From: Ralstonia sp. SET104
GTDB lineage: Bacteria > Pseudomonadota > Gammaproteobacteria > Burkholderiales > Burkholderiaceae
DNA: 64,000 nucleotides
NCBI RefSeq assembly: GCF_003851545.1
Contig: NZ_BHVX01000006.1
Span: 124,001 to 188,000 of the forward strand
Direction of reading: 5' to 3'
Position 1 is the first letter of the stretch. Each line of letters starts with the position of its first letter. The notes under the pieces are model-generated. The model did no database searches, was not told the origin of the DNA, and saw only the letters and a program-made list of their open reading frames with translations. Shown here in pieces: positions 46,652 through 60,385 of this stretch. The translations under genes were made by a program, and so were the position numbers.

Positions 46652-48034
46652 ATGGCAGTCGATACGCAACTCGAAGCCCACGCACTGGGTGTGAGCGAAT
46701 CCGTCGTCATGGGTGTGGCGGGCACTGCGCCTGCGTTCAGCATTGCCGCCACCACGGCCACGCTGATCGGCGCGGTAGGCGCGCTCACGCCGGCCAGCCT
46801 GCTGTATTGCGGGTTGATTATGTTTGGCGTGACGTTTGCATACCTGCATCTGAACCGCGTCAACCCGCATGCCGGCGCGGCGTACGCCTGGGTGGGGGCC
46901 ATCTTCAACCGTACGCTGGGTTTCTTGGCGGGTTGGGCCCTGCTGGTGGCATCGGGTGTGTTCATGGTATCGGGCACGATTCCGGCTGCAACGGCCACGC
47001 TCACATTGGTGGCGCCGTCACTGGCCGCGCAGCCTGCCGTGGTGGCGCTGGTGGCTGCAGCGTGGCTGCTCGTGGTAAGCGCCGTCATCATCAAGGGCAT
47101 CAAGCTGACGAGCTATTCGCAGATCGCCATGACCGCGACGGAGACAGTCATTCTGGGTGGCTTGATCGTGCTGGCAGTGGTGAAGTTTGGCGCGCACCCA
47201 GCGCATGCGCTGTCGTGGGCGTGGTTGTCGCCAACGGCATTTACGCCGCGGTTGTTTGCCACGGGCGCGCTCACGGCGCTGTTTTTCTTCTGGGGCTGGG
47301 ACGTGACCGTGAACCTGACGGAAGAAACACGCGACGCCAATCACGCACCGGGCCGTGGCGCACTGTGGGCCATGGTGATCGTGCTGGCGCTGTTCATGGG
47401 CTTTGCCGCCGTGATTCTGCTTGTGCTGAGCGACGCTGAGATCGAGCAGTCCAGCACCAACGTCATCTTTGCAGTGGCCGAAAAGCTGCTGCCGCGCCCG
47501 TGGAGCTACGTGGCCGTGGTGGCCGTCATGCTGAGTACGATCGGCACGCTTGAAACCTCCATCCTGCAATTCACCCGCACGCTCTACGCCAAGGGGCGCG
47601 ATGGCATGCTGCACACGCGCTACGCCAAGTTGCATCCAAGATGGCGCACGCCGTGGGTGGCCACGGTCGTCATCTCAGCGATTGGGTTGGTGCTGCTTTT
47701 TGGCGCGTCGTTTTTTCCGAGCATCAACGCCATCATCAAGGTTTCGGTCAATGCGATCGGGTTTCAGGTGGCGTTCTACTACGGCCTGGCTGGCTTTGCC
47801 TGCGCGTGGCACTACCGGCATGAAGCGCTGCGCTCTGTGTTCAACGCGGTGTTTCTGGCGGGCTGGCCGTTGGGCAGCGCACTGTTCTTGTGGTTTATCG
47901 CGGCGTACAGCGTGCCGACCTTTGATATGACGACAAACCTGGTAGGGCTGGGCGGCATCGCCGTGGGTGTGGTGCCGCTGCTGCTCAATCGCTGGTCTGC
48001 GCAGCGGGTCGCCCGGTTAGCCCGCAACCGTTGA
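46652..48034 (+). CDS. APC-superfamily amino acid/amine permease
   Basis: This 460-residue protein has 12 hydrophobic segments and the APC-type beginning LGVSESVVMGVAGTAPAFS, with FFFWGWDVTVNLTEETRD in the middle of the chain. It imports amino acids, amines or similar solutes; the substrate is not readable. GGAGGTGA gives a strong start. The 3' end overlaps the convergent Hpt gene by 18 bases. Confidence 0.87.
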   Translation: MAVDTQLEAHALGVSESVVMGVAGTAPAFSIAATTATLIGAVGALTPASLLYCGLIMFGVTFAYLHLNRVNPHAGAAYAWVGAIFNRTLGFLAGWALLVASGVFMVSGTIPAATATLTLVAPSLAAQPAVVALVAAAWLLVVSAVIIKGIKLTSYSQIAMTATETVILGGLIVLAVVKFGAHPAHALSWAWLSPTAFTPRLFATGALTALFFFWGWDVTVNLTEETRDANHAPGRGALWAMVIVLALFMGFAAVILLVLSDAEIEQSSTNVIFAVAEKLLPRPWSYVAVVAVMLSTIGTLETSILQFTRTLYAKGRDGMLHTRYAKLHPRWRTPWVATVVISAIGLVLLFGASFFPSINAIIKVSVNAIGFQVAFYYGLAGFACAWHYRHEALRSVFNAVFLAGWPLGSALFLWFIAAYSVPTFDMTTNLVGLGGIAVGVVPLLLNRWSAQRVARLARNR

Positions 48035-48430
48035 GTCTGGCCACGGGAGCGCGCGGGCCAGTTGGCGAAACTCGTCAGCAAGGGCGCGCAGGCAGGTGAT
48101 GGAGGATTGCATCTCCGCCGCGCGTTCGTGATAGGGCCGTGCGCTGTGCGCGGAGCGCTCGATGATGCGGGCGGTATCGCCGATCGGCTGATGCCCCAGC
48201 ATGCGCGCTGAGCCGACAATGCGGTGCGCGGCTTCGACGATCTGTACGACTTCACTGCCACGGATGGCTTTCTCAAGGCTGACGAGATCCTGTTCCACCG
48301 TCTCGGAAAACAGGTCAATGATGAAGCGCCATTGTTGGAGGTCGTCGCCAAACAGTTCGGCAAGCGTGGCGACCACTTGCGCGGGGAACTGCGCGGTGAT
48401 GTTGGCGTATACGTTGGACGTGGAGTGCAT
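48017..48430 (-). CDS. Stand-alone Hpt (histidine phosphotransfer) protein
   Basis: This 137-residue helical protein has an Hpt domain (about 15-110) with the phosphorylatable His69 in EAAHRIVGSARMLG, matching the AHxLKGSSxxLG pattern. It should relay phosphate between a hybrid kinase and a response regulator, neither of which is encoded in this window. It overlaps the 3' end of the convergent APC permease gene by 18 bases. ATG at 48430 is chosen as the first before the helical domain. Confidence 0.82.
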   Translation of the reverse strand: MHSTSNVYANITAQFPAQVVATLAELFGDDLQQWRFIIDLFSETVEQDLVSLEKAIRGSEVVQIVEAAHRIVGSARMLGHQPIGDTARIIERSAHSARPYHERAAEMQSSITCLRALADEFRQLARALPWPDSTVAG

Positions 48431-48529
48431 GATGGCGCGCGTGCGATGAAGAGCTGATAGGCACTTTGCACGCCGTGCGCGCACGCAACCATGAGATTGG
48501 TCCGATTCTGGCGCTGGCCAACATGAAAC

Positions 48530-48559
48530 GGGCGCACCGCTCTTGCAGGCGGTGCGCCC
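48530..48559 (-). terminator. Strong hairpin after the RND efflux operon
   Basis: GGGCGCACCGC (48530-48540) and GCGGTGCGCCC (48549-48559) form a perfect 11-base-pair stem with an 8-base loop, 26 bases past the czcA stop. The following minus-strand sequence is GTTTCATGTT, a weak T tract. Confidence 0.65.
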
Positions 48560-48584
48560 GATGTCCTTCCTGTGCAGACACGCC

Positions 48585-51500
48585 TCAGGGCAGCATCGCC
48601 GCAGTCGGGCTAACGTCCGAATCGCGTGACGGCGGGCGGCGATGGCGGTGCGCCCACGTAAACACCACCGGCAGCACCAGCAGCGTGAGGATGGTGGTGG
48701 TGACCATGCCGCCGACGATCACCAGCGCCAGCGGGCGCTGCGCTTCCGAGCCGATGCTGTGCGACAGTGCCGCAGGCAACAGGCCCAGGCCCGCCAGCAT
48801 GGCCGTCATGATCACTGGCCGCAGGCGTAGCGCGGCGCCATCCACCGTGGCTTCGCGCAGGTTTTCAGATTGCGCCAGACGATTCACATACGAGATCAGG
48901 ATGACCCCGTCCTGGATGGCGATGCCAAACAGCGACAGGAAGCCGATGCCCGCCGAGATCGACAGCGTCTCGTGCGCGATATGCAGCGCCAGCAACCCGC
49001 CAATGGCCGCAAACGGCACGTTCAGTACCACCATCAGCGCGTCCTTGAAGTTGCCGAACGTGCTGTACAGCAGGAGGAAGATGACGAGGATCGTCAACGG
49101 CACGATCACCATCAGCTTGCCCTGCGCGACCTTCATCTCGTTGAACTGCCCGTCCCACTTGACGGTGTAGCCCTCGGGCAGCTTCACGCTGTTGCCCACC
49201 ACGCGCTGCGCCTCGTCCACCGCGCCGCCCAGGTCACGCTCACGCACGCCAAACTTGATGGCGATGTAGCGCTTGCCTTCTTCGCGGTAGATGAAGAACG
49301 GGCCGTCAGTCATTTCCACCTTGGCGATCATCGATAGCGGAATGTGCTGACCGTCAGGCGTGTCGATCAGCAACTCGCGAATCGCGTCGTACGACGCACG
49401 CGCCTGCTGATTCAGGCGCACGGCCAGCCCGAACGATTTCTCGCCTTCCAGAATCTGCGTGACTGGCGCGCCGCCAATGGCGTATTGCACGAGGCTCTGC
49501 ACATCGCTCACGTTGATGTTGAAGCGCGCGGCGGCCTGGCGGTCGATGGATACGTTCAGCGTTGGCTGGCCCAGCTCGCGGAAGATGCCCACATCCACCA
49601 GCCCTTGCACCTTCTTGAGCTGCGCCTGGATTTCATTGGCCTTGGCTTCCAGCACGTTGAGATCGTTGCCGAACAGCTTGACGGAGTTCTCGCCCTTCAC
49701 GCCCGAGAGTGCTTCGTCCACGTTGTCCTGGATGTACTGCGAGAAGTTGTATTCGATGCCCGGAATTTTCTCCAGATGCTTGGACAGACGCTCGACCAGT
49801 TGCGCCTTGGTCATGCCCTTGGCCCATTGATCAGGCGGGGCGAAGTACAGGCCGTATTCCTGGTTGAACACGCCGGTGGAATCGGTGCCGTCATCCGGGC
49901 GGCCGATCTGTACCGAGACCTTCTGGATCTCGGGCTGCTTGGTGAAGTACGTGCGCAGGTCGTTGGCCACCGACGCCGAGTAGTCCAGGTCCACCGTATT
50001 GGGCAACGTAATGCGCAGCCACAGGTTGTTCTCTTCCAGCGTTGGCAAGAACTCCGTGCCGAGGAATGTCGCGCTGTACAGCGTGAGCACGAGCGCGGTG
50101 ATGGCGGTGGCAAACACGGCCATCGGTCGCGCAATCAACTTGCGCAGCAACGGCTTGTACCAGCGCAGAATGGCCGTGATGAACGCCGGCGAATGCGGAT
50201 GCAGTGACTTGCCGAACACGAAGGACGTGGTGGCCGGCACGAAGGTCAGGCTCAGCACGATCGAGGCCATCAGCGCGAAGCCCATCGTGAAGGCCATCGG
50301 CTTGAAGATGATGCCTTCCACACCGCCGATGAAGAACAGCGGCGAGTACGCCACGATGATGATGCCTGTGGAGAAGATCATCGCGCGCTGCACTTCGCTG
50401 GTGGCCTTGATGATGGCGTCGTCCAGCTTTTCGGCGCCTTCTTCCAGGTGCCGCATGATGTTCTCCATCACGATCACGGCCGCATCGACAATCACCCCAA
50501 AGTCGATCGCCCCGAGCGAGATCAAATTGGCCGGCACATGGAAGTGCTCCATGCTGATGAACGAGACGCACAGCGCCAGCGGAATCACCGCGGCCACCAC
50601 AGCGGCCGCGCGCAGGTTGCCCAGGAAGACGAACAACACCGCCAGCACCAGCGAGATACCGACCACCAGCGTGTGTTCGACCGTGCCCATGGTGATGTCA
50701 AGCAGCACCTGGCGATCATAGAATGGCTTGACCTGGATCGACTTGGGCAGGATGCCGTCGTTCAGCTCGGCAACCTTCTCGCGCACCTTGGCCAGCACTT
50801 CGGTGGCGTTGGCGTCGCGCTTGAGCAGCACGATGCCTTCCACCACGTCGGGCTGGTCGTTGTATTGCACCTGGCCCAGGCGCTGCACGTTTCCGACTTC
50901 TACCTCGGCAATATCGCGCACGCGTACCGGTACGCCGTTGTTGGCGTTGACCACCACGTTGCGGATGTCTTCCACCGTTTGCAGCAAGCCCACGCCGCGC
51001 ACCACGAATTGCTGTTCGCCGTCGCGCAGCAGGTTGCCGCCGGTATTGTTATTGGCATTGCCAATGGCTGTGATGAGCTGAGACAGCGTGATGCCGTACG
51101 ACTGCAGCTTCGCCGGCGACGGCACGATGTGGTACTCCTTCACCTTGCCGCCGAAGGAGCTGACATCCGCCACACCCTGCACGTGCTTGAGCTCTTTGGT
51201 GATGTCGTAGGCCTGGTAACTCTTGAGCGTGGTGAGATCCACGCCATCCCCCACGAGGCGGAAGCGCATGATCTCGCCCGTGGCATCTGAGTCCGGGCTC
51301 AGCGAGGATTGCACCCCGGTCGGCAGATTGGCCGACGCCAGATACTGCGAGAAGTTCTGCCGCGCCTTGAAGCTGTCGGTGCCCTCCTTGAACTTGAGCG
51401 TCACCACCGACAGGCCAAACAGTGATACCGAACGGAATGACTGCACATCTGGCACGCCGGCCAGCGCGTTTTCAATCGGGATGGTGATCTGCTGTTCGAC

Positions 51501-51680
51501 TTCGGTCGTGCTGCGGCCGGGCCACTGCGTGATGGCCTGCACCGACAGCGGCGCCACACCCGGATACGCCTGCAGCGGCAACTCCCGGAACGACAGCACG
51601 CCCGCCGCCAGCAGCGCAACCGCCAGGAAGACAATCAGCAGACGCCGCTTGAGAATGCCCGCGATGGGGTTGAAGCCCAT
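48585..51680 (-). CDS. czcA: HME-RND heavy-metal efflux permease (CzcA/CusA type)
   Basis: This 1031-residue inner-membrane RND pump has a first helix at about 12-32, two large periplasmic loops (about 40-335 and 560-860) and the helix-4 motif AIDFGVIVDAAVIVMEN. This has the DFG and VDxAxxxxEN pattern of metal-exporting RND proteins. It drives metal cations out with proton influx as a tripartite complex with the two upstream gene products. The exact metal (Zn/Co/Cd or Cu/Ag) is not settled by sequence reading. It is the third gene of the operon. Confidence 0.92.
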   Translation of the reverse strand: MGFNPIAGILKRRLLIVFLAVALLAAGVLSFRELPLQAYPGVAPLSVQAITQWPGRSTTEVEQQITIPIENALAGVPDVQSFRSVSLFGLSVVTLKFKEGTDSFKARQNFSQYLASANLPTGVQSSLSPDSDATGEIMRFRLVGDGVDLTTLKSYQAYDITKELKHVQGVADVSSFGGKVKEYHIVPSPAKLQSYGITLSQLITAIGNANNNTGGNLLRDGEQQFVVRGVGLLQTVEDIRNVVVNANNGVPVRVRDIAEVEVGNVQRLGQVQYNDQPDVVEGIVLLKRDANATEVLAKVREKVAELNDGILPKSIQVKPFYDRQVLLDITMGTVEHTLVVGISLVLAVLFVFLGNLRAAAVVAAVIPLALCVSFISMEHFHVPANLISLGAIDFGVIVDAAVIVMENIMRHLEEGAEKLDDAIIKATSEVQRAMIFSTGIIIVAYSPLFFIGGVEGIIFKPMAFTMGFALMASIVLSLTFVPATTSFVFGKSLHPHSPAFITAILRWYKPLLRKLIARPMAVFATAITALVLTLYSATFLGTEFLPTLEENNLWLRITLPNTVDLDYSASVANDLRTYFTKQPEIQKVSVQIGRPDDGTDSTGVFNQEYGLYFAPPDQWAKGMTKAQLVERLSKHLEKIPGIEYNFSQYIQDNVDEALSGVKGENSVKLFGNDLNVLEAKANEIQAQLKKVQGLVDVGIFRELGQPTLNVSIDRQAAARFNINVSDVQSLVQYAIGGAPVTQILEGEKSFGLAVRLNQQARASYDAIRELLIDTPDGQHIPLSMIAKVEMTDGPFFIYREEGKRYIAIKFGVRERDLGGAVDEAQRVVGNSVKLPEGYTVKWDGQFNEMKVAQGKLMVIVPLTILVIFLLLYSTFGNFKDALMVVLNVPFAAIGGLLALHIAHETLSISAGIGFLSLFGIAIQDGVILISYVNRLAQSENLREATVDGAALRLRPVIMTAMLAGLGLLPAALSHSIGSEAQRPLALVIVGGMVTTTILTLLVLPVVFTWAHRHRRPPSRDSDVSPTAAMLP

Positions 51681-51682
51681 AC

Positions 51683-52840
51683 CTACGCTCCCGCCTTCAC
51701 GATCATTTCGTTAAGCAGAGCGGCCCCGCGCACCACCACTTGCGACGAGGCGTTGAGCCCGGCCGTGACGGCAAAATTGCCATCGGCGCCCGTGTCCTTG
51801 CCGCGCACTTCGACGCGCTTGAAGTGCGTGGCGTCGCTTTGCACGATCACGTAGTAGCTGCCGTGGTCTTTCACCAGGGCGGACTTCGGCACCACGGTGG
51901 CTTCACCGCTGCCGGTCTGGATGCGCGCCGTGGCGTACATCTCGGGGCGCAGCAGGCCGTCGGGGTTGGGCACGTCACAGCGCACGGTGAGCGTGTGCGT
52001 GGCCGGATCGATGTTCGGCGCAATAAAGCTCACGCGGCCCGTGAACTCGCGCTGCGGATACGACGACGTATGCAGCGAGATCGGCTGGCCGATGCGCACG
52101 CTGGCGATGTCGTTCTCATACACATTGCCCGTGAACCACAGCACACGCGTATCGACGATGCTCATGAACGAGTCGCCCACGTTCAGGAAGGCGCCCGGGT
52201 CCATGTTGCGGCGGACGATGGTGCCCGAGATGGGCGCGCGCAGCGTCAGGTGCTCAGCCGGCGTGCCGCGCTTGGCGATCTGCGCGACATCGGCGTCGGA
52301 CATGCCCAGTACGTGCAGGCGGCCGGCGGCGGATTGCACGGTGGCGTCTGCGTCTTCCTGCAGATCCTTCATGTTGGAACTCTTGAGCTGGCGGGCGGTA
52401 TTGAGTGCCAGCAGGTATTCCTTCTGCGCGGAGATGAAGTCTGGCGCATACAGCTCGGCAATCGGCTGCCCTTCGCGCACCAGTGCACCTTCGAACTGGA
52501 GGATGTGATCCAGCCGGCCAGCCACGCGTGCCGAAGCCAGCTTGGTGCGCTCAGCGTTGTAGGCGAGCTTGCCCGGCGCGGACAGCTCTACCGGCACCGC
52601 AAGCTGGCTGACTTGCGCAACCTGCACCTGCTGCGGGTCGAAGCCGCCGGCGGGAATCTCAACGGAATCAGGTTTCGGGCGGGCCGGGGCAGTGGCCGCA
52701 ACGGCAGAGGCGGCCGCCGGTTTGGCTGCCTCAGCCGGGGCAGCGGCAGGCCACTTGCGGCCGACCACCACGCCAACAGCAACAGCCGCCGCCAAGGCGA
52801 TCACCGAAGTTACGGTGGCGATAGGAGAGAACTTCTTCAT
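51683..52840 (-). CDS. czcB: RND periplasmic adaptor (CzcB/CusB type membrane fusion protein)
   Basis: This 385-residue protein has an N-terminal membrane anchor or signal (about 8-28), an Ala/Pro linker, then the barrel-sandwich, alpha-hairpin and beta-barrel domains (LTLRAPISGTIVRRNMDPG near 215-235). It bridges the CzcA pump and the outer-membrane channel in the periplasm. No His-rich metal-binding tail is present. It lies 2 bases from czcA and 4 bases from the channel gene. Confidence 0.9.
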   Translation of the reverse strand: MKKFSPIATVTSVIALAAAVAVGVVVGRKWPAAAPAEAAKPAAASAVAATAPARPKPDSVEIPAGGFDPQQVQVAQVSQLAVPVELSAPGKLAYNAERTKLASARVAGRLDHILQFEGALVREGQPIAELYAPDFISAQKEYLLALNTARQLKSSNMKDLQEDADATVQSAAGRLHVLGMSDADVAQIAKRGTPAEHLTLRAPISGTIVRRNMDPGAFLNVGDSFMSIVDTRVLWFTGNVYENDIASVRIGQPISLHTSSYPQREFTGRVSFIAPNIDPATHTLTVRCDVPNPDGLLRPEMYATARIQTGSGEATVVPKSALVKDHGSYYVIVQSDATHFKRVEVRGKDTGADGNFAVTAGLNASSQVVVRGAALLNEMIVKAGA

Positions 52841-52844
52841 GGTT

Positions 52845-54221
52845 TTATTGAGCTTGAACCGGCGAGCGGCCGGTGGCCGCGAGCAGCGCGTGATAGGCCT
52901 GCAAGGCCGTGGCCTGTGCCTGGGCGACCGACAGTTCGGCGTTCTTGAGCGCGCCCTGGGCGGTCAGCAGGTCGTTGAAGTCGGCGTTGTTGCTGGCGTA
53001 GTTGGTCATCGTCACGCGATAGGCCGCCAGCGCCTGCGGCAGTTGCCGCTGCTTGTTGAAGTCGAGCTGCGCGAGCGTCTGGCGCAGCGTGTTGTAGGCG
53101 GTATCCACGGCCAGCAGCGTCTGCTGACGCACTGACACATCGTTGGCTTCCATAGCGATCTGGCTTTCCACTGCCTGGTTCACGCCGTACTTCTCTTTGA
53201 ACAAGAACCAGAACGGGATGATCACGTCCAGCTCGATCTGGTAGCTGTTCGGGTGTACGCCATACGGCGGGTTTTCCGTTGTGACGGTGGCAATGACCTG
53301 GAAGTCGGGCAGGTAAGCCTTGCGCGCCAGCGTCACGCTCTTGCGTGCGGCGTCCATCAGCTCGGCCGATGCCTTGATCGACGGGTGCTCACGCAGTGCC
53401 TGGTTTTCCAGCTCGGGCAGGGGCTCGGACGGCAGGTGCACCGCTTCGTCATCGGCGCGCAGTTCCAGCGGGAAGCTCGGCGCTTTGCCGATGAGTGTGT
53501 TGAGCGTCTGCAGCGTACTGTCGTACTGGCGCTGCGCGGCAAACAGGTCGTTCTGCGCGCTGCTTTGCATGACCTGCGCGTTGAGGAAGTCGGCGTAGGC
53601 AGCGGCGTTGTTGGCGTAGCGCACACGCGTGATCTGCTTGACCTGCTCCAGGCGCGTGATGGTCAGCTTTTGTACGTCGATCTGTTTTTGCAGCGCGACC
53701 GCCTGGTAGTAGGTGGTGGAAAGCTGCGCGTAGAGCTGCAGATACAGCGCGTCGTTCTGCGAATTGAGTGATTCAGCCTGCCGGTCTGCAATTTCCGCCG
53801 CCAGCGCCTTCTTGCCCGGAAACGGAATCTGCTGCGTCAGGTTGTACTGGCTGCCGACAGCGCGGTTGACCGCCAGCGGGAACCCCTTGGGGATGTTGTT
53901 CCAGATGTAGCCGATCTGCGGGTTATTGGGCGCGGCAAGCTGCGGTGGTATCGACTTGGCCGACAGATAGGCGTGCCGCCCTTGAATGAGCTGCGGGTTG
54001 TTGCTTTTCAGCTCCTGCAGCAATTCGACCAGATTAAAGCCGGGCCCGGTGACGCCCGGCACGGACGTCTTGACGGGCGGCATGGTTGCCACCGGCAGAC
54101 TGGCCGCAGCCGTGGCCGGCGTTGGCGCCGGTGTGGCTGCCCAGGCAGCGGAAAATGGCAGGCAGGCCACCGCGCAAAGCACGGCCCTCGCCCGTGGATG
54201 AAATGCACCCCGATGTTTCAC
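52845..54221 (-). CDS. czcC: TolC-family outer-membrane efflux channel (CzcC type)
   Basis: This 458-residue protein has a signal peptide (cut after AWAA, about residue 29) and two outer-membrane efflux repeats of long helices (about 60-250 and 260-450). It forms the outer-membrane exit duct for the CzcBA pump. The start is GTG at 54221, with AGGGGAG about 10 bases upstream. As the first gene, it should lie behind the operon promoter in 54222-54390. Confidence 0.88.
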   Translation of the reverse strand: MKHRGAFHPRARAVLCAVACLPFSAAWAATPAPTPATAAASLPVATMPPVKTSVPGVTGPGFNLVELLQELKSNNPQLIQGRHAYLSAKSIPPQLAAPNNPQIGYIWNNIPKGFPLAVNRAVGSQYNLTQQIPFPGKKALAAEIADRQAESLNSQNDALYLQLYAQLSTTYYQAVALQKQIDVQKLTITRLEQVKQITRVRYANNAAAYADFLNAQVMQSSAQNDLFAAQRQYDSTLQTLNTLIGKAPSFPLELRADDEAVHLPSEPLPELENQALREHPSIKASAELMDAARKSVTLARKAYLPDFQVIATVTTENPPYGVHPNSYQIELDVIIPFWFLFKEKYGVNQAVESQIAMEANDVSVRQQTLLAVDTAYNTLRQTLAQLDFNKQRQLPQALAAYRVTMTNYASNNADFNDLLTAQGALKNAELSVAQAQATALQAYHALLAATGRSPVQAQ

Positions 54222-54390
54222 TGCTGCAGACTCCCCTTGAGACGGGAGCGTTTTTACCGGCGCGAACTTTCAAGCGCCTTTCACGACTCAGCAAGCCGTC
54301 AGCAAGCCGTCTGGGCGTTGGAAAAACGCGCAAAAACCGCCCCCACGGCGGCAGTCTGCGACAGTTATATGACAAGATATGGCGAGTGTC

Positions 54391-54642
54391 TCAGGCCGTT
54401 GCAAGCGGGCATGGCATGCTGACGCGGGCGGCAAGTGCGTCGCGCATGGCTTGCAAACTGGCGATGCGCGCATCGATGGTGGCCAATTTTTCCCGCAGCA
54501 GCGCGGTGACGTCGGCGTCGGTGTCGGGTTGCTGCCACACCTGCGTCATACCTTCGCCTATCTCGGCCAGCGTAAAACCCAGTTGCTGTGCCCCTCTCTT
54601 TCGAAACCGCAGTGTTGCGTAATTGGCTTCGGGCTGCTGCAA
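54391..54642 (-). pseudogene. Decayed MerR-family metal regulator lacking its DNA-binding domain
   Basis: The 83-residue frame encodes YATLRFRKRGAQQLGFTLAE, then LLREKLATIDARIASLQAMR. This is the linker and dimerisation helix of MerR regulators (usual form LRFIRRAQxLGFSLxEI). Only TTG at 54642 could start it, and the helix-turn-helix of about 40 residues is gone. Faint similarity (PAGHRRQ) continues upstream before a stop at 54706-54708. It lies just ahead of czcCBA, so it was probably the metal-responsive activator of that operon. Expression as a dominant-negative fragment cannot be excluded. Confidence 0.6.
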
Positions 54643-54689
54643 TTGGCGCCTGTGGCCTGCGGGCCAGCGCGAACGGGCACGCAGGCGGC

Positions 54690-54721
54690 TTAAGCGCTTA
54701 AGTGCCTAAGCGATTTAGCGT
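54690..54721. repeat. Four tandem 8-base repeats (consensus YTAAGCGN)
   Basis: TTAAGCGC, TTAAGTGC, CTAAGCGA and TTTAGCGT follow one another. The array spans the stop of the BON lipoprotein gene and the point where MerR similarity is lost. It supplies the stop codon on the minus strand ahead of the remnant. Confidence 0.7.
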
Positions 54722-55131
54722 GCGGCTGGGGCGCTGGCCGGCGCGGCGGGCGGCAAGCCAGCCGGGATGAGGGGGCCGCCGCCCAGCACCTGCATGCGCG
54801 AGAGCACGCGCAACTGGTTGTCGAGCTTGGCGGGGTCAACAAAGCGTTTGACGTCCTCGCCGGCGCGGCGGGCCATTTCAGGGGTATCGACCCAGCCCGT
54901 CAGCGTAACGTTGCCGTCAGGGGTAGAGCGGATGCGGATCTGGCGCGTGTTGAGTGCCGTGTCCTGATCCAGCGCTGCCTTGACCTGATATGACAGCAAC
55001 GAGTCGTCGATCATGCGAGCGCCGACGGTGTTCGGGCTTTCGCCCCACGCGCAGGCTGTGAGGAGCGCTGCGGCACCGATTGCCGCCAACACACCGGCCG
55101 GGGCTGCGAAGGACAACTGAGGGAAGCGCAT
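54715..55131 (-). CDS. BON-domain lipoprotein
   Basis: This 138-residue protein has a lipoprotein signal peptide with Cys27 (LLTAC) and one BON domain (about 40-110; DDSLLSYQVKAAL, GNVTLTGWVDTPEMARRA). It ends in a Pro/Ala-rich tail. Such OsmY-like proteins sit in the periplasm and help the envelope under stress, probably by binding phospholipid. AGGAG precedes the ATG. It lies between the bufferin operon and the czc region on the same strand, but its gap to the DoxX gene is 86 bases. Confidence 0.85.
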   Translation of the reverse strand: MRFPQLSFAAPAGVLAAIGAAALLTACAWGESPNTVGARMIDDSLLSYQVKAALDQDTALNTRQIRIRSTPDGNVTLTGWVDTPEMARRAGEDVKRFVDPAKLDNQLRVLSRMQVLGGGPLIPAGLPPAAPASAPAAR

Positions 55132-55217
55132 CGATGCTCCTGAATAGAGGGCTGACGAGGGGGCTGACAAGAAGAGCTGCAACTCCACATCATAAGCCCG
55201 CTGCGCTCGCAATCGGC

Positions 55218-55688
55218 TTAACGCGCGCGGCGTTGCCACATGGTCTGCAACGCCAGCCAACCCGGCCCCACCGTCGCCACAAGCGCAATCAGCACGCCCC
55301 ACACAAAATGGAACTCGATGGCCGACGCCGACAGGTTGGCCCAGTACGACAGCGCCGCGACTACGTTGACGAAGAACAGCCCCGCCGCAGCCAGCCGCGG
55401 CACGATGCCAGCCAGCATCAGCGAGGGGAAGATCAGCTCGCCAAACGTGCCGAGCCCCGCCGCCAGCGCTGGAGGCAGTAGCGGCACTTTGTATTCCTCG
55501 GTAAAAAGCAGCAAGGTTGTGTTCCAGTCGTGCAGCTTGGTCAGGCCCGAACGGAAGAACACGTAGAAGAGATACGCGCGTGCGATCAGCAGGATGAGCG
55601 AGCAGAGGGCACTCTGCGGGCCGGCAAGCCGGTCAAGCGATGCGCGGATGCGCGTGAGCGGGGCAACGGTTGTGGTGAGGGCGTTCAT
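55218..55688 (-). CDS. bufD: DoxX-family membrane protein (bufferin operon, BufD-like)
   Basis: This 156-residue protein has four hydrophobic helices with the DoxX/DoxD motifs (RAYLFYVFFRSGLTKLHDW, LGTFGELIFPSLMLAG). DoxX proteins are the usual last member of DUF2282-DUF692-DUF2063 operons; the role is unclear, perhaps electron transfer at the membrane. It starts inside the stop of the DUF2063 gene (ATGA). The gene symbol follows the bufferin naming scheme by position. Confidence 0.85.
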   Translation of the reverse strand: MNALTTTVAPLTRIRASLDRLAGPQSALCSLILLIARAYLFYVFFRSGLTKLHDWNTTLLLFTEEYKVPLLPPALAAGLGTFGELIFPSLMLAGIVPRLAAAGLFFVNVVAALSYWANLSASAIEFHFVWGVLIALVATVGPGWLALQTMWQRRAR

Positions 55689-56443
55689 GGCATGTCTCCG
55701 GTAGACGTTGCTGTTGGGCAGGCGGACAGCGCGAGCAGCCCCGCGCGATAAAGGCCAGACAGGCATGTGGTGAGATCAAAATCCGCCCGCTCCGCCAACG
55801 TGGTTTCGAGCGCGGCCTGGAGCGACGGCGTGGCGGCGCAAGCCGCAAGGAACGTGGCAGTGGCGGCATCAACATCGAGCACAGCAACGCGATTCCCACG
55901 CGCCGTGATTGCCGCCGCTTCGCCCACACCCAGGTCAATCTCATTGAGCGGGATGCCCGCGTCAGGCTGATGCGCGCGCCAGATCGAAACCACTGGCCAC
56001 TGTGAGGCCACCCACCGAACGCCGTTCGCAAGCTCTGCGCGAATGGTGTCCGCCGGCCGCGCGAGCAAGGTGACATCCACCGCCTTCTCATGCGCATCCG
56101 GCGCGTAGTACGCCCAGTGCACGCACCACTCCAGCCGTGCCACATCAGCCAGATACGGCACGCTGCCGGCCAACGGCGATTGCGCGATGACGTTTGGCAA
56201 CGCATCTCCATAGCGATGCAGATTCGGCGATGCGCATGCCTGCGCGGCCAGCGTGTCGCGCACGAGCGCATCAAAACACTCGTTGCCAACGAGTGCGCGA
56301 CAGACCGGGTATGCCCCTGCGAGCGCGTTGCGCAGAATCGCCAAGCGCGCGTTGCGGTAGATGGCTACGCCACGCGTTTCTTCGTTGCTTGCGCGGTTGG
56401 TGAGCACGCCGATCAGGTGAGACTCCCACTCAGGCAATCGCAT
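55685..56443 (-). CDS. bufC: DUF2063 partner protein of the MNIO enzyme (BufC-like)
   Basis: This 252-residue protein has an N-terminal DUF2063 domain (about 1-100; [40 protein letters not shown]) and a C-terminal PqqD/RRE-like region. DUF2063 proteins bind the precursor peptide and help the DUF692 enzyme act on it. Despite the name putative DNA-binding, no helix-turn-helix is convincing. GGGAGG precedes the ATG at 56443, which overlaps the DUF692 gene by 14 bases. Confidence 0.87.
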
Positions 56444-57299
56444 GGTTTGCCTCCCGCATCGGTGCGTTGGCATGACGATCGAGCACCGCTTGCGCGCGTG
56501 CTGCCTCCTCCAGCAGCACCTGCACCGGCGGAAGATCGGCATCCCATTCAATGAGCGTTGGGCGTGCCCCGTGTTTGGCGATCCACGCGTCATACAGCGC
56601 CCAGACGGGGGCATGCACCGGCGCGCTGTGGGTGTCGATCAGCATGCCGTCTTCCACGCTGAAACCCGCCAGGTGAATCTCGCCGACGAGCGCAGGGTCA
56701 ATATCGGCAAGCACCGATTCCACGGTCACACCATGGTTGACGCTGTTCACGTACAGATTGTTCAGGTCCAGCAGGATGCCGCAGCCGGTGCGCCGCGCGA
56801 GGTCAGTCAGGAATGCGCCCTCAGAGATGGCCTCGTCGGCATCGACCAGGGCACGGCAGTCGATATATGCCGCGATGTTCTCGACCAGCAGCGACCGCTT
56901 GAGGATGTCCTGCGCCCGCATGACGTTGGCGCAGACAATATCCAGCGATTCGCGGGAATAGGGCAGGGGCAGCAGATCGTTGACGACCTGCGCGCCGCTG
57001 CGGTTGAAGCACAGGTGCTCGGAGATGGCGGCGGGGGCAACGGCGTCGGTCAATGCTGCGATGGCGTGCATGTGTTCGATGTCGAGCCCTTCTGCATTGC
57101 CGAGCCCCATGCCCACGCCGTGCAGGCTCACGGGCTGGTGTTCTCGCGCGGCCAGCAGCGCGGCGCGGGCGGGGCCGCCATACAGATAGTTCTCGCTGTG
57201 CACCTCCACCCACGGGAAGTGGGCCACCCCCCGGAGCAAGGCGGGAAAGTGCGGTGCGCGCAGGCCTGCGCCGGCGCAGGTTGGCAGAGCGGTCTGCAT
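56430..57299 (-). CDS. bufB: DUF692 multinuclear non-heme iron oxidative enzyme (BufB-like MNIO)
   Basis: This 289-residue TIM-barrel enzyme has the metal-ligand blocks of the family: [58 protein letters not shown] and [12 protein letters not shown] enzymes with two or three iron ions modify cysteines of precursor peptides; in bufferins the known product is a 5-thiooxazole. It lies 23 bases after the DUF2282 precursor gene. ATG at 57299 is used; the upstream extension has no family similarity. Confidence 0.9.
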
Positions 57300-57322
57300 G
57301 GCGGTCACCCGGCTGGCCTGCG

Positions 57323-57589
57323 TTACTTGGCCGGTGCCTGCATCGTGCCGCCCATCTGCGCGCAGGTGCCGGCGGGCACGTACTTCCACGACATCGGGTC
57401 TTTATCGATCTTCGACTGGCCGGCGCAGGCGTGGGCGCTGCCCGGGCTGGCGCAATCGTTCTGGCCAGCCTTGGCCACGCCGTAGCACTTTTCCTTGGCC
57501 ATTGCGTCGGCGGCCTGCACCGGCGTCGACAGTGCGCCCAGCGCGAGCAGGCTACCCAGAGCGGCGGCAATCATGGCGTGTTGTTTCAT
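57323..57589 (-). CDS. bufA: DUF2282 bufferin precursor peptide (BufA-like)
   Basis: This 88-residue precursor has a Sec signal peptide (residues 1-26 or 27, cut near VQAAD) and a core with four Cys at 35, 46, 55 and 76 in the DUF2282 pattern [21 protein letters not shown] and YVPAGTC. In described bufferins some of these Cys are converted to thiooxazoles by the MNIO enzyme; the modified peptide is exported and binds copper, protecting the cell. AAGGAG precedes the ATG. It is the first gene of the four-gene operon. Confidence 0.9.
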
Positions 57590-57770
57590 TTGCGTTCTCC
57601 TTGAATGAGCAGGTGTCGTTCAACGGCAGACAGGGCGGAATCCCTTGCCGTACGGTGCACTGCGGCATCGCGCAGATGTGTTCCGTGCACCTTTGTCGAC
57701 ACAGGCGCGCGTTCCTGACACGGAGAACAGAAATTTTTTGGATTTTTTTTTGAGAGCCAAACCGGCAATG
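57590..57770 (-). promoter_or_regulatory. Upstream region of the bufferin operon
   Basis: This 181-base stretch must hold the bufferin promoter. It contains T-rich runs (57733-57752) and two GGAAC sequences on the minus strand that resemble the -35 element of ECF sigma promoters, but no matching -10 element at standard spacing is clear. No sigma or anti-sigma gene is adjacent. Confidence 0.4.
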
Positions 57771-57796
57771 AAAAAAGGCGACCCGGATGGGCCGCC
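57771..57796 (-). terminator. Rho-independent terminator after the histone-like gene
   Basis: On the minus strand GGCGGCCC pairs with GGGTCGCC (one G-T pair) around ATCC and is followed by six T. It isolates the bufferin operon from the gene upstream. Confidence 0.82.
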
Positions 57797-57828
57797 GTTC
57801 TAGGCAACTTCGGCTGAGCAGGAAAGAT

Positions 57829-58347
57829 TTACCTGACGTGCGCAGCGCGGGTGCGTGCCGCCTTCTTGGCAGCCGCGGATCTGCCAGCCGCGCCCTTGGT
57901 GGCCGCGCCCTTCTTGGCCGCCGCCGAGCGCTCGCTGCTCGAACGCTTGGAGGCCGCGCTATGCGCCTGCTTGGATAGCGACGATTTGGAAGCCGCCGAA
58001 TGATCTTCTTTCTTCAGCGTGCGGGTTGTGGTCTTGCTGCGCTTGGCGGTGGATTCCTTGCTGGCACTGGCGTGGCTGCTCTTCTTGCTGCCAGCTTTGA
58101 CGTCGTGTTCCGCCTTCTTGCGCGTGGCTGCCGACGCCCTGCCTTCCCCCGGTGGCTTGACGGCAACGCCTGCGCGGCGAGCCTTGGACAGCCCGATCGC
58201 GATGGCTTGCTTGGTGTTTTTCGCACCGTGCTTGCCCTCGCGGATGTGATCCATCTCTTCCTTCACGAAGTTGCCCGCCTGGGTCGAGGCGGCCTTGCCG
58301 TGGCGCTTGTCGGCGCGCGCACGTTCTACGGTTTTGCGTTCCGGCAT
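57829..58347 (-). CDS. DUF6496 protein with histone-H1-like Lys/Ala/Ser-rich tail
   Basis: This 172-residue basic protein has an N-terminal DUF6496-type segment (about 15-75; AGNFVKEEMDHIREGKHGAK, AIAIGLSKARRAGV) and a tail of about 95 residues built from Lys, Ala, Ser, Arg and Thr, resembling eukaryotic H1 tails. It probably binds DNA non-specifically. GGAGG precedes the ATG at 58347. The repetitive tail is prone to length change between strains. Confidence 0.82.
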   Translation of the reverse strand: MPERKTVERARADKRHGKAASTQAGNFVKEEMDHIREGKHGAKNTKQAIAIGLSKARRAGVAVKPPGEGRASAATRKKAEHDVKAGSKKSSHASASKESTAKRSKTTTRTLKKEDHSAASKSSLSKQAHSAASKRSSSERSAAAKKGAATKGAAGRSAAAKKAARTRAAHVR

Positions 58348-58467
58348 GATGACGTCCTCCGTTGGGTTAGGGCGCTGGCCGGCAATGCGATGAATCAGAT
58401 CACCGATCCACCACCGGCAGCGCTTGCCCCACAACCACGCAACCGGCGTACCTGCGCGGCGCCGGAC

Positions 58468-58737
58468 TCAACCCACGCGGAAATGCTCGATGCTCTGTCC
58501 AGCATTGACGGCGCGTTGCAGCCAGTCGGGCATGTCGCCCAGGCCGTCCCAGTGTTGGCCGTCGGCGCTCATGTAAACCGGGCCGATAGGTGTTGGGGGG
58601 GGCGGTGGAGGCGGCGGCGCGTCAAAGCAGCCGTGCGCCTGCAAATCTTCGACAGACAGATCGTAGGTTTGCATTTGTTCCAGGATCCAGGCGACCGCGG
58701 TTTCGCGGCCCGGCTCCGGCGGGTGACCTTCCTTCAT
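58468..58737 (-). CDS. H-NS family variant with polyproline linker
   Basis: This 89-residue protein has a short N-terminal helix (AVAWILEQMQTYDLSVEDLQ), an eight-proline run near residues 45-52 and an H-NS-like C-terminal DNA-binding motif (QHWDGLGDMPDWLQRAV; the usual form is TWxGxGRxPxW). The long N-terminal oligomerisation region of H-NS is much reduced. It may bind DNA or modulate full-length H-NS. No strong ribosome-binding site precedes the ATG at 58737. Confidence 0.78.
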   Translation of the reverse strand: MKEGHPPEPGRETAVAWILEQMQTYDLSVEDLQAHGCFDAPPPPPPPPTPIGPVYMSADGQHWDGLGDMPDWLQRAVNAGQSIEHFRVG

Positions 58738-58895
58738 CTTGTACGTAGGTTTGGAGTTTCTGTCCGCCGGCTGCCTACCCGAGAGAGAAGCGGGGAGAGG
58801 GCAGGCGCAGGGCGCGCCGGGCGCCAGCGGAAAACGCACAAGAATACCAGCAGTTGAGCCGCCGATTCGTGTTGCAAATGCGGCAACCTATTGTG

Positions 58896-59801
58896 TTATC
58901 TGGCGGCAGGCGAATCGGGCCGTGCCCGCCGCCACCGATATGGCGACCACCCCAGGTTCATGCCCGCCGCCGCCAGCAGGATCGCTCCGGCGCCCAAGAA
59001 CTGCGCAAACTGCAGCCGATGCCCGAACGCAACGATGTCTACCACGATGGCGACGATCGGATAAATGAAAGACAACGACCCCGTCAGATGCGTCGGCAGC
59101 CGTTGGATGGCGCCATAGAGCAGGATGTACACCAACCCCGTATGCGCCACGCCCAGCGTGATCAGTATTCCCCACGTGTGCGCATCGGCCGGCAGATGCT
59201 GCAGGTTGGCCAGCGGCGCCAGCATCAGCACCCCCACGCATACCTGGATGAGGGCAATCAGATGCGGCGGCGTGCCGGCCAGCTTTTTGATGAGGAAGGC
59301 TGCCACGGCATAGGCAAACGCCGCGCCCAGCGCCATGGCAATGCCCGTCAGGTAATCGGTGCCCGTGCCGCTGGCTGCCGGCCCCACCTGCACGATCAGC
59401 ACGACGCCAATAAAGGCGAGGGCCAGCCATGTGAGTTTGGCGGCGGTCAGCTTTTCCGACAAAAACAGCGCGCCCAGCCCGACCAACATGAAAGGCTGCG
59501 TGTTGTAGACCGCCGTGGCAATCGAGATGGACGCCCGCGGATACGCCGCAAACAGCAGCAGCCAGTTGATGACAATGGCAACGCCGCCCAGCGCCGCAAT
59601 GCCGGCGCGCTGCCACGTGATCGCGCCGCGCAGCAGCCCCAGGCCCGCGCATACCGCCAGCAGCGTCAGCGCGCCGAACACGCAGCGCCAGAACACCACG
59701 TCGGTCACGGGCTGGCCGGAGCGAATGACGAACCAACCGATCGTCCCGGAAATCATCATGGCGGTGGTCATCTCGACCGTGCCGCGCGTCTTGTCGTTCA
59801 T
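58896..59801 (-). CDS. DMT-family (EamA) transporter
   Basis: This 301-residue protein has ten predicted transmembrane helices in two EamA repeats (about 5-135 and 150-285). Such proteins export amino acids or metabolites. AAGGTGG precedes the ATG at 59801. It is divergent from an Lrp/AsnC regulator 134 bases away, a common arrangement for amino-acid exporters, and is probably controlled by it. Confidence 0.87.
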   Translation of the reverse strand: MNDKTRGTVEMTTAMMISGTIGWFVIRSGQPVTDVVFWRCVFGALTLLAVCAGLGLLRGAITWQRAGIAALGGVAIVINWLLLFAAYPRASISIATAVYNTQPFMLVGLGALFLSEKLTAAKLTWLALAFIGVVLIVQVGPAASGTGTDYLTGIAMALGAAFAYAVAAFLIKKLAGTPPHLIALIQVCVGVLMLAPLANLQHLPADAHTWGILITLGVAHTGLVYILLYGAIQRLPTHLTGSLSFIYPIVAIVVDIVAFGHRLQFAQFLGAGAILLAAAGMNLGWSPYRWRRARPDSPAAR

Positions 59802-59935
59802 GTGAACCACCTTGAGCGTTGAATGCAAGAAGGATCGCATGCGGATCGGCTGACTTCCATCGCTTTTCTGAGGCAAAATGCGCGCTCTTTCTAATGAAGT
59901 AAGGCGAAATGCCAGAACGGCAGCTCGGAGGCATG

Positions 59936-60385
59936 ATGAGCACGATTGACGCGCTGGACCAACGGATTCTGGATGTCCTGCTGACCGATTCCCGCATCTC
60001 GCTCAAACAACTGGCCGAGCAGGTGGGGCTGTCGTCCCCCAGCGTGTCGGAGCGCCTGCGCCGTCTGGAAGCGCGCGGCGTGATCCGCCATTACACCGTT
60101 GATATCGATCCCAAGGCGCTGGGCTACGCGCTGCAGGCCATCGTGCGGGTGCGGCCCATGCCGGGCAAGCTGCATATCGTGCAGAAGCTGATCGAGGAGA
60201 TTCCGCAGATTGGCGAATGCGACAAGGTCACGGGCGAGGACTGCTTCATTGCGCGGCTGTACGTGCGCTCGATTGACCAGCTCGACCACATTCTCGACCG
60301 CCTGGCCGATCACGCCGAAACCAATACCGCCATCGTCAAGACGCAGCCCGTGAAGCGGCGTGCGCCGCCGTTTGCAGACAGTTGA
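59936..60385 (+). CDS. Lrp/AsnC-family transcriptional regulator
   Basis: This 149-residue protein has an N-terminal helix-turn-helix (ISLKQLAEQVGLSSPSVSER, about 19-38) and a C-terminal RAM/AsnC ligand-binding domain (VRVRPMPGKLHIVQKLI, about 68-140). It senses an amino acid. ATG at 59936 or 59933 with GGAGG close upstream is preferred; a longer start at 59909 is possible. It probably regulates the divergent DMT transporter. Confidence 0.88.
   Translation: MSTIDALDQRILDVLLTDSRISLKQLAEQVGLSSPSVSERLRRLEARGVIRHYTVDIDPKALGYALQAIVRVRPMPGKLHIVQKLIEEIPQIGECDKVTGEDCFIARLYVRSIDQLDHILDRLADHAETNTAIVKTQPVKRRAPPFADS

Follow-up and report, generated by a model that had tools for sequence, protein, structure and literature searches.

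The window, a 64,000-nucleotide stretch of DNA from Ralstonia sp. SET104, contains the genus-core Buf1 bufferin operon of Ralstonia, an operon that appears to lie outside the SigF/NrsF regulon. A block of about 75 bp that is conserved upstream of the operon is probably its control site, judged from conservation alone. The interest of the locus is therefore an apparently SigF-free mode of regulation throughout the genus, resting on an absence together with a conserved element. As an operon, it adds one member of a kind already known to a large and recently defined class of peptides.

Operon structure and gene assignment

Four minus-strand genes make up the operon (Table 1). The first-pass annotation, made from the DNA letters, had described them as a complete bufferin-type operon; its coordinates and strand were right, and all four products exceeded the cut-offs of their Pfam families. 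Its statement that the starts overlap or nearly touch also agrees with the spacing, which was 23 bp between bufA and bufB, with overlaps of 14 bp (bufB/bufC) and 4 bp (bufC/doxX). When NCBIfam was used, bufB scored 314.6 against NF050167 MNIO_BufB (“MNIO family bufferin maturase”), barely above the cut-off of 310, and the other three genes yielded matches below the respective cut-offs: HvfC for bufC (45.4 vs. 142), HvfX for doxX (42.8 vs. 80), and, as the sole match of BufA to a bufferin-precursor model, BufA2 (32.2 vs. 60). By the features that are open to sequence analysis and fold prediction, the locus is a Buf1 bufferin operon. A plasmid collection was searched with positions 53500-58000 of the window, and zero matches were found.

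Table 1. Features of the bufferin locus and its surroundings, in window coordinates
Feature	Position	Strand	Description and basis
Terminator-like hairpin, intrinsic	57777..57796	-	between upstream gene and operon; GGCG...CGCC, then T-rich, in 15-row alignment
Conserved block, candidate promoter/operator	57648..57723	-	two GGAAY boxes 31 bp apart, then CCGTACGG box; alignment of 15 Ralstonia loci
bufA (DUF2282 precursor, Buf1)	57323..57589	-	88 aa; PF10048, 85.7 bits
bufB (MNIO/DUF692 maturase)	56430..57299	-	289 aa; PF05114 (MbnB_TglH_ChrH), 299.1 bits
bufC (DUF2063 + RRE-type partner)	55685..56443	-	252 aa; PF09836, 61.3 bits
doxX (DoxX-family membrane protein)	55218..55688	-	156 aa counted from start 55688; PF07681, 49.5 bits (cut-off 23.6)
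BON-domain protein	54715..55131	-	PF04972, 40.1 bits; lipoprotein-type signal by eye; after doxX
MerR-family remnant	54391..54642	-	PF09278 alone; C-terminal part kept, DNA-binding N-terminus gone
HME-type RND efflux system	48585..54221	-	TIGR00914, 937 bits; neighbour of the operon
RND outer-membrane factor	52845-54221	-	
RND adaptor	51683-52840	-	
RND pump	48585-51680	-	

Precursor, maturase and partner protein

The cysteines of BufA are located at positions 35, 46, 55 and 76, exactly as first annotated, and these positions were identical in 15 of 15 Ralstonia loci. Of 82 related precursor cores, 75 likewise had four cysteines, three had five and three had six, and one truncated stretch had none. 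The Sec-type signal peptide of BufA was assigned by eye. BufB was aligned with 3bww and TglH (8hci), and the conserved motifs were retained (the alignment was read by eye). A BufB tree was built from 84 rows, and the window type was united there in one clade with full support, the stem of which is long (0.99 changes per column). This clade was placed beside one of Gallionellaceae/Nitrosomonadales, where four of the six rows had a sigma gene or motif. Given the length of the stem, the activity of BufB in the Ralstonia clade could have shifted.

BufC was modeled with AlphaFold2 (pLDDT 90.4) from a 44-sequence alignment, the members of which were chosen from stretches of the wider locus survey. 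A Foldseek search with this model at E <= 0.001 returned only TglHI chains (8hci_A and 8hi7_A, with TglI twice) and NGO1945 (3dee). A search of the PDB with single BufC or BufA sequences, unlike the fold search for BufC, gave no match, and a PDB profile search with the BufC alignment gave nothing at 0.01. BufC has the features of a PME-type-1 partner, i.e. a DUF2063 domain and an RRE-type domain in a protein of ca. 250-260 residues (252 here), with a predicted fold like those of TglI and NGO1945. Both of the latter proteins are treated as typical MNIO partners in PMC12452194.

An unusual arrangement was observed in another genome (G011, L167:4897-8914), in which the gene for a 692-residue protein is followed by MNIO and DUF2063 genes; this protein has a ferritin-like domain (PF12902), and its C-terminal part is rich in Cys. 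This set is convergent with a CusA-like RND pump gene and a CusF-like ORF, both recognized by eye. The 692-residue protein could be a very long MNIO substrate; the words “ferritin” and “VioB” are absent from the main text of PMC12452194.

Distribution in Ralstonia and a second operon

The operon was found in 15 of 16 Ralstonia genomes, and the sole genome that lacked it is 88% complete. BufA, BufB, BufC and DoxX were all located in each of the 15 loci, and BufB was free of stops in all of them. The identity of BufB to its counterparts in the 14 other genomes was 85-92%, and its closest named relatives were also from Ralstonia (88-91%). A literature search on Ralstonia in combination with DUF692, DUF2282 or bufferins, from which most subscription journals were excluded, returned papers on Legionella, Caulobacter and Cupriavidus only.

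Contig C10 of the genome from which the window was taken bears another bufferin operon, a canonical one, which is divergent from genes for an ECF sigma factor and NrsF (PF06532, 106.7 bits). The C10 copy of BufB clustered with Paraburkholderia in the 84-row tree, apart from the window type; the two operons thus represent different lineages rather than a recent duplication. One genome therefore carries both forms, the NrsF-linked operon of C10 and the operon of the window. A gene for a patatin-like DUF3734 protein was observed near the C10 operon (L005:5375-6577) and also near an orphan bufA in genome G012 (L166:6922-8073).

Neighboring genes and the question of zinc

The HME-RND system and the BON protein that had been noted beside the operon are both real according to profile matches. 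The BON gene was present in 9 of 9 Ralstonia-type loci in the named collection and in 15 of 15 Ralstonia loci, compared to 0 of 71 others. The order buf-BON-outer-membrane factor-adaptor-RND pump was conserved in all nine Ralstonia-type loci, with a MerR match in eight, and an RND pump was close to a buf operon in only two of the 71 loci outside this group. A gene for an Hpt-domain protein (PF01627; 48017-48484) is situated just downstream of the RND pump gene.

The pump was compared to solved structures, and ZneA was the closest (798 bits, vs. 554-562 for the CusA entries). In an alignment evaluated by eye, it had acidic residues at the positions of the proximal-site acidic residues of ZneA, which we take to be E136, D602, E610 and D654 (Glu, Asp and Asp at the positions of E136, D602 and D654, respectively). 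At the positions of the Met triad in the periplasmic domain of CusA, it had Leu, Asn and Glu, and the triad is therefore absent. In sequence, then, the pump is more similar to ZneA than to the copper exporter CusA. Zinc is the exported metal in the case of ZneA (PMC8277102).

The loss of MerR that had been noted was also evident, as the gene in the window retained PF09278 alone, compared to PF13411, PF00376 and PF09278 in a related locus (L008). In that locus, the MerR gene is arranged head to head with a gene for a small membrane protein, the two being located between the BON and outer-membrane-factor genes. The usual partner of the MerR gene is thus this intervening gene; MerR is accordingly unlikely to be a regulator of the bufferin operon, and its loss provides no evidence on bufferin control. 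The membrane-protein gene, on the opposite strand, was looked for in 13 loci and was present in all but two, the window and L016; L009 and L013 were left out of this check, and L015 and L165, whose contigs are equal in length, probably belong to one contig, which lowers the number of independent genomes. Relative to L008, ca. 650 bp have been lost around positions 54600-54720 of the window, a deletion that removed both the membrane-protein gene and the N-terminus of MerR. After this loss, the buf, BON and efflux genes of the window all lie on one strand, and a terminator scan revealed no minus-strand terminator between bufA and the efflux genes. With the opposite-strand gene gone and no such terminator in between, the bufferin transcript of this strain might run into the efflux genes.

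These observations bear on the possibility that the bufferin system has been retuned to zinc or another divalent metal and acts with the ZneA-like pump and the BON protein. The gene order described above, which is nearly confined to Ralstonia-type loci (elsewhere, RND in 2/71 and BON in 0/71), speaks for it, as do the likeness of the pump to ZneA, with the acidic sites kept and the CusA triad absent, and the long stem of BufB; PMC12452194 also expects MNIO roles under other metal stresses. However, the Cys pattern and the enzyme motifs are standard, and the literature, as far as it was available, ties bufferins mainly to copper homeostasis. Furthermore, synteny within a single genus can be inherited without function, and the opposite-strand gene separates the two units in relatives, so co-transcription is not general. 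A retuning of this kind is accordingly regarded as unlikely. The case for the cooperation with the RND pump that the first-pass annotation had proposed is weakened: the synteny is indeed kept in Ralstonia, but the pump is ZneA-like and the relatives have an opposite-strand gene between the units.

Sigma factors, NrsF and the SigF motif

No ECF sigma gene is adjacent to the operon, as had been noted from the start; the nearest Sigma70_r2 (PF04542) matches on the contig lie at a distance of about 47 kb or more. In total, 17 such matches were found in this genome, two of them on the contig of the window. By itself, the lack of a neighboring sigma gene is nothing unusual. Of 80 related loci fetched from the named collection, 76 had a precursor that was located, and six of these 76 had a sigma match within 3 kb, a count that is a low estimate because a single sigma query was used and some contigs were short.

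Of the 16 Ralstonia genomes, that of the window alone had a match to NrsF, which is located on C10 beside the other operon. The best sigma matches in the remaining 15 genomes had at most 33% identity. Among 200 genomes of the family, those with DUF2282 comprised 46 from outside Ralstonia, 31 of which had NrsF, and 15 from Ralstonia, one of which did (Fisher p = 4e-5, a value that is descriptive only, as the genomes share ancestry). Ralstonia is not alone in this respect, given that NrsF was also missing from 15 of those 46 genomes.

The SigF motif, GTAACC-N16-CGAA, served as a second indicator. It was present in exact form upstream of the C10 operon, which was the positive control, and none of 200 shuffles was as good. 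Upstream of the window operon, the best match had 3.5 mismatches, and 192 of 200 shuffles were equal or better. None of the 14 Ralstonia loci had the motif, whereas 20 of 35 loci from other genera had it upstream of the precursor gene. These 35 were taken from 71 non-Ralstonia DUF2282 places and are not a random sample (15 came as loci, and 20 were picked with knowledge of the NrsF result). All 20 motif-bearing loci are in NrsF-positive genomes, which makes the motif a fair marker; the 15 motif-free loci comprise 12 from NrsF-negative genomes and three from NrsF-positive ones. The best of 15 Ralstonia upstream regions was that of L096, with a SigF-like site having two mismatches that was matched by 25 of 200 shuffles; a two-mismatch site would pass the motif search of the Caulobacter study itself, as described in PMC3511200. 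The lack of the motif in the Ralstonia loci and the single occurrence of NrsF in 16 genomes are together the reason for placing the core operon outside the SigF/NrsF regulon.

Control of the window operon in trans by the SigF/NrsF-type pair of C10 was also considered. There is a precedent in the second Caulobacter operon, CC2905-CC2907, for which PMC3511200 lists a dependence on SigF and a mapped promoter, and the sigma/NrsF pair is present in the genome of the window. Against this stand the unacceptable quality of the best motif match upstream of the window operon, the 14 other Ralstonia genomes that hold the operon without NrsF, and the different BufB lineages of the two operons; trans control of this type is very improbable.

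The upstream block and the 5' region

Fifteen Ralstonia upstream regions were aligned, and the two best 20-bp windows of the conserved block (Table 1) were 85% and 75% invariant. For comparison, the ribosome-binding site reached 65%, the terminator region 40-50%, and the stretch at -330 to -220 had 0-35%, although this last figure was lowered by two of the 15 rows that lack the upstream gene. A 27-position pattern, which was derived from the Ralstonia block sequences themselves, matched all 14 Ralstonia loci with one mismatch at most and had at least 12 mismatches in each of 35 loci from other genera. Behind the terminator-like hairpin, which was found in the alignment, the operon probably forms a separate transcription unit; the terminator scan is weak by itself (two such sites vs. 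a shuffle mean of 3.5).

A duplication in genome G012 (L166:6249-6723) suggests that the upstream region and the precursor form a single functional unit, as the block has been copied together with an orphan bufA in a 475-bp segment. The encoded protein is 94% identical, and no match to bufB, bufC or doxX was found within the 13 kb fetched. With ribosome-binding site and block conserved, all four proteins in 15 of 15 Ralstonia loci, the Cys pattern unchanged and BufB without stops, the notion that the window operon is a non-functional relic, to which the decayed MerR gene and the vanished membrane-protein gene of this genome might point, is scarcely credible.

Other types of control were sought. 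A structured RNA element in the 5' region was rejected on three counts: a search of Rfam with 48000-60000 gave nothing up to E = 1, the fold had a z-score of -1.32 with 23 of 200 shuffles equally stable, and 4 of 35 consensus pairs showed two-sided changes, the covariation term being -0.42. A sigma-70 promoter scan of 54200-58000 yielded a single site on the plus strand and none upstream of bufA. The fit to sigma-54, heat-shock and FliA promoters upstream of bufA was poor (consensus sequences were compared by eye).

When the whole genome was scanned, the first box, as a 28-bp pattern, had 17 matches (one exact, 16 at three mismatches) vs. 11 for a reversed-pattern control, and the second box had 33 (one exact, 32 at one mismatch) vs. 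26. No regulon of the block can be drawn from these counts. Stretches around 8 of the 17 sigma genes were scanned as well; TCAGGAAT was matched once (L159), and the SigF motif was present next to the C10 pair (L160). It could also be that a known regulator acts at the block and went unrecognised.

NrsF-less loci of two other genera (six and four loci) were also inspected; one of these genera had upstream conservation of its own, and the Ralstonia block was present in neither. The six genomes concerned (L182-L187, genus g25, with NrsF-less DUF2282 loci) share upstream stretches around TTACGAAT-GACACATC and GCGTATT, which are possibly another SigF-free control site.

Proposed mechanism

The reading that we favor with good confidence is that of a core bufferin system whose modified peptide would sequester copper in the periplasm and which, rather than being switched by SigF/NrsF, probably answers to another regulator through the block. 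The DUF2282 precursor would be made with a Sec signal peptide and handed by the DUF2063/RRE partner to the MNIO enzyme. By analogy to the family, this enzyme would turn the two central cysteines, 46 and 55, into thiooxazoles by oxidation, the modified peptide would leave via Sec, and a disulfide between cysteines 35 and 76 would close after export. The peptide would then sequester copper, and possibly other soft metals, in the periplasm, as copper binding by related bufferins suggests. DoxX is envisaged as a membrane accessory, and a regulator other than a SigF/NrsF-type switch probably acts on the conserved 75-bp block.

A bolder version is put forward as speculation. The core bufferin operon of Ralstonia, outside the SigF/NrsF regulon, would be governed by an undescribed envelope- or metal-sensing regulator via the two-box, 75-bp element, and the peptide, in concert with the ZneA-like pump and the BON protein that accompany the operon in every Ralstonia-type locus examined, may handle zinc or some other divalent metal, not copper alone.

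Comparison with known systems

The Legionella pneumophila GIG operon has homologous DUF2282, DUF692 and DUF2063 genes, and it responds to gold and copper (PMC5413113). In the text of that paper, “rpoQ” is absent and “sigma factor” occurs once, for RpoS. The Legionella operon is on an integrative element with a reported influence of RpoS, whereas that of the window belongs to the core of its genus and has an upstream block of its own. For the captophorins (fontiphorin, oxazolin and gonophorin), PMC13097082 describes the installation of 5-thiooxazoles by an MNIO with a DUF2063-type partner. Fontiphorin carries seven 5-thiooxazoles, whereas two sites are expected in the four-Cys DUF2282 precursor of the window. 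The zinc exporter ZneCAB contains the solved RND structure that is closest in sequence to the pump of the window.

The Caulobacter operon CC3254-CC3257 has DUF2282, DUF692, DUF2063 and DoxX genes, a set and order that it shares with the window, and is the one that we take to make bufferin 1. Bufferin 1 of Caulobacter has been assigned 5-thiooxazoles (PMC13097082), and the operon is under SigF via GTAACC-N16-CGAA (PMC3511200). That motif was not found upstream of the window operon.

The gigPABT operon of Cupriavidus metallidurans CH34, also of the Buf1 type, has four genes in an order identical to that of the window. It is an RT-PCR-verified operon induced by copper and gold, and the gig promoter is described as unidentified (PMC10304878). 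An ECF sigma gene, rpoQ, and an anti-sigma gene are oriented divergently to gigPABT, whereas the window operon has neither. The SigF motif was looked for upstream of the window operon and was not found there either. RpoQ has been reported not to be essential for gig expression, and the dispensability of this linked sigma factor is left unexplained (PMC13192273). Ralstonia offers a natural case, with the operon in 15 of 16 genomes, NrsF in one, and a short conserved element at hand.
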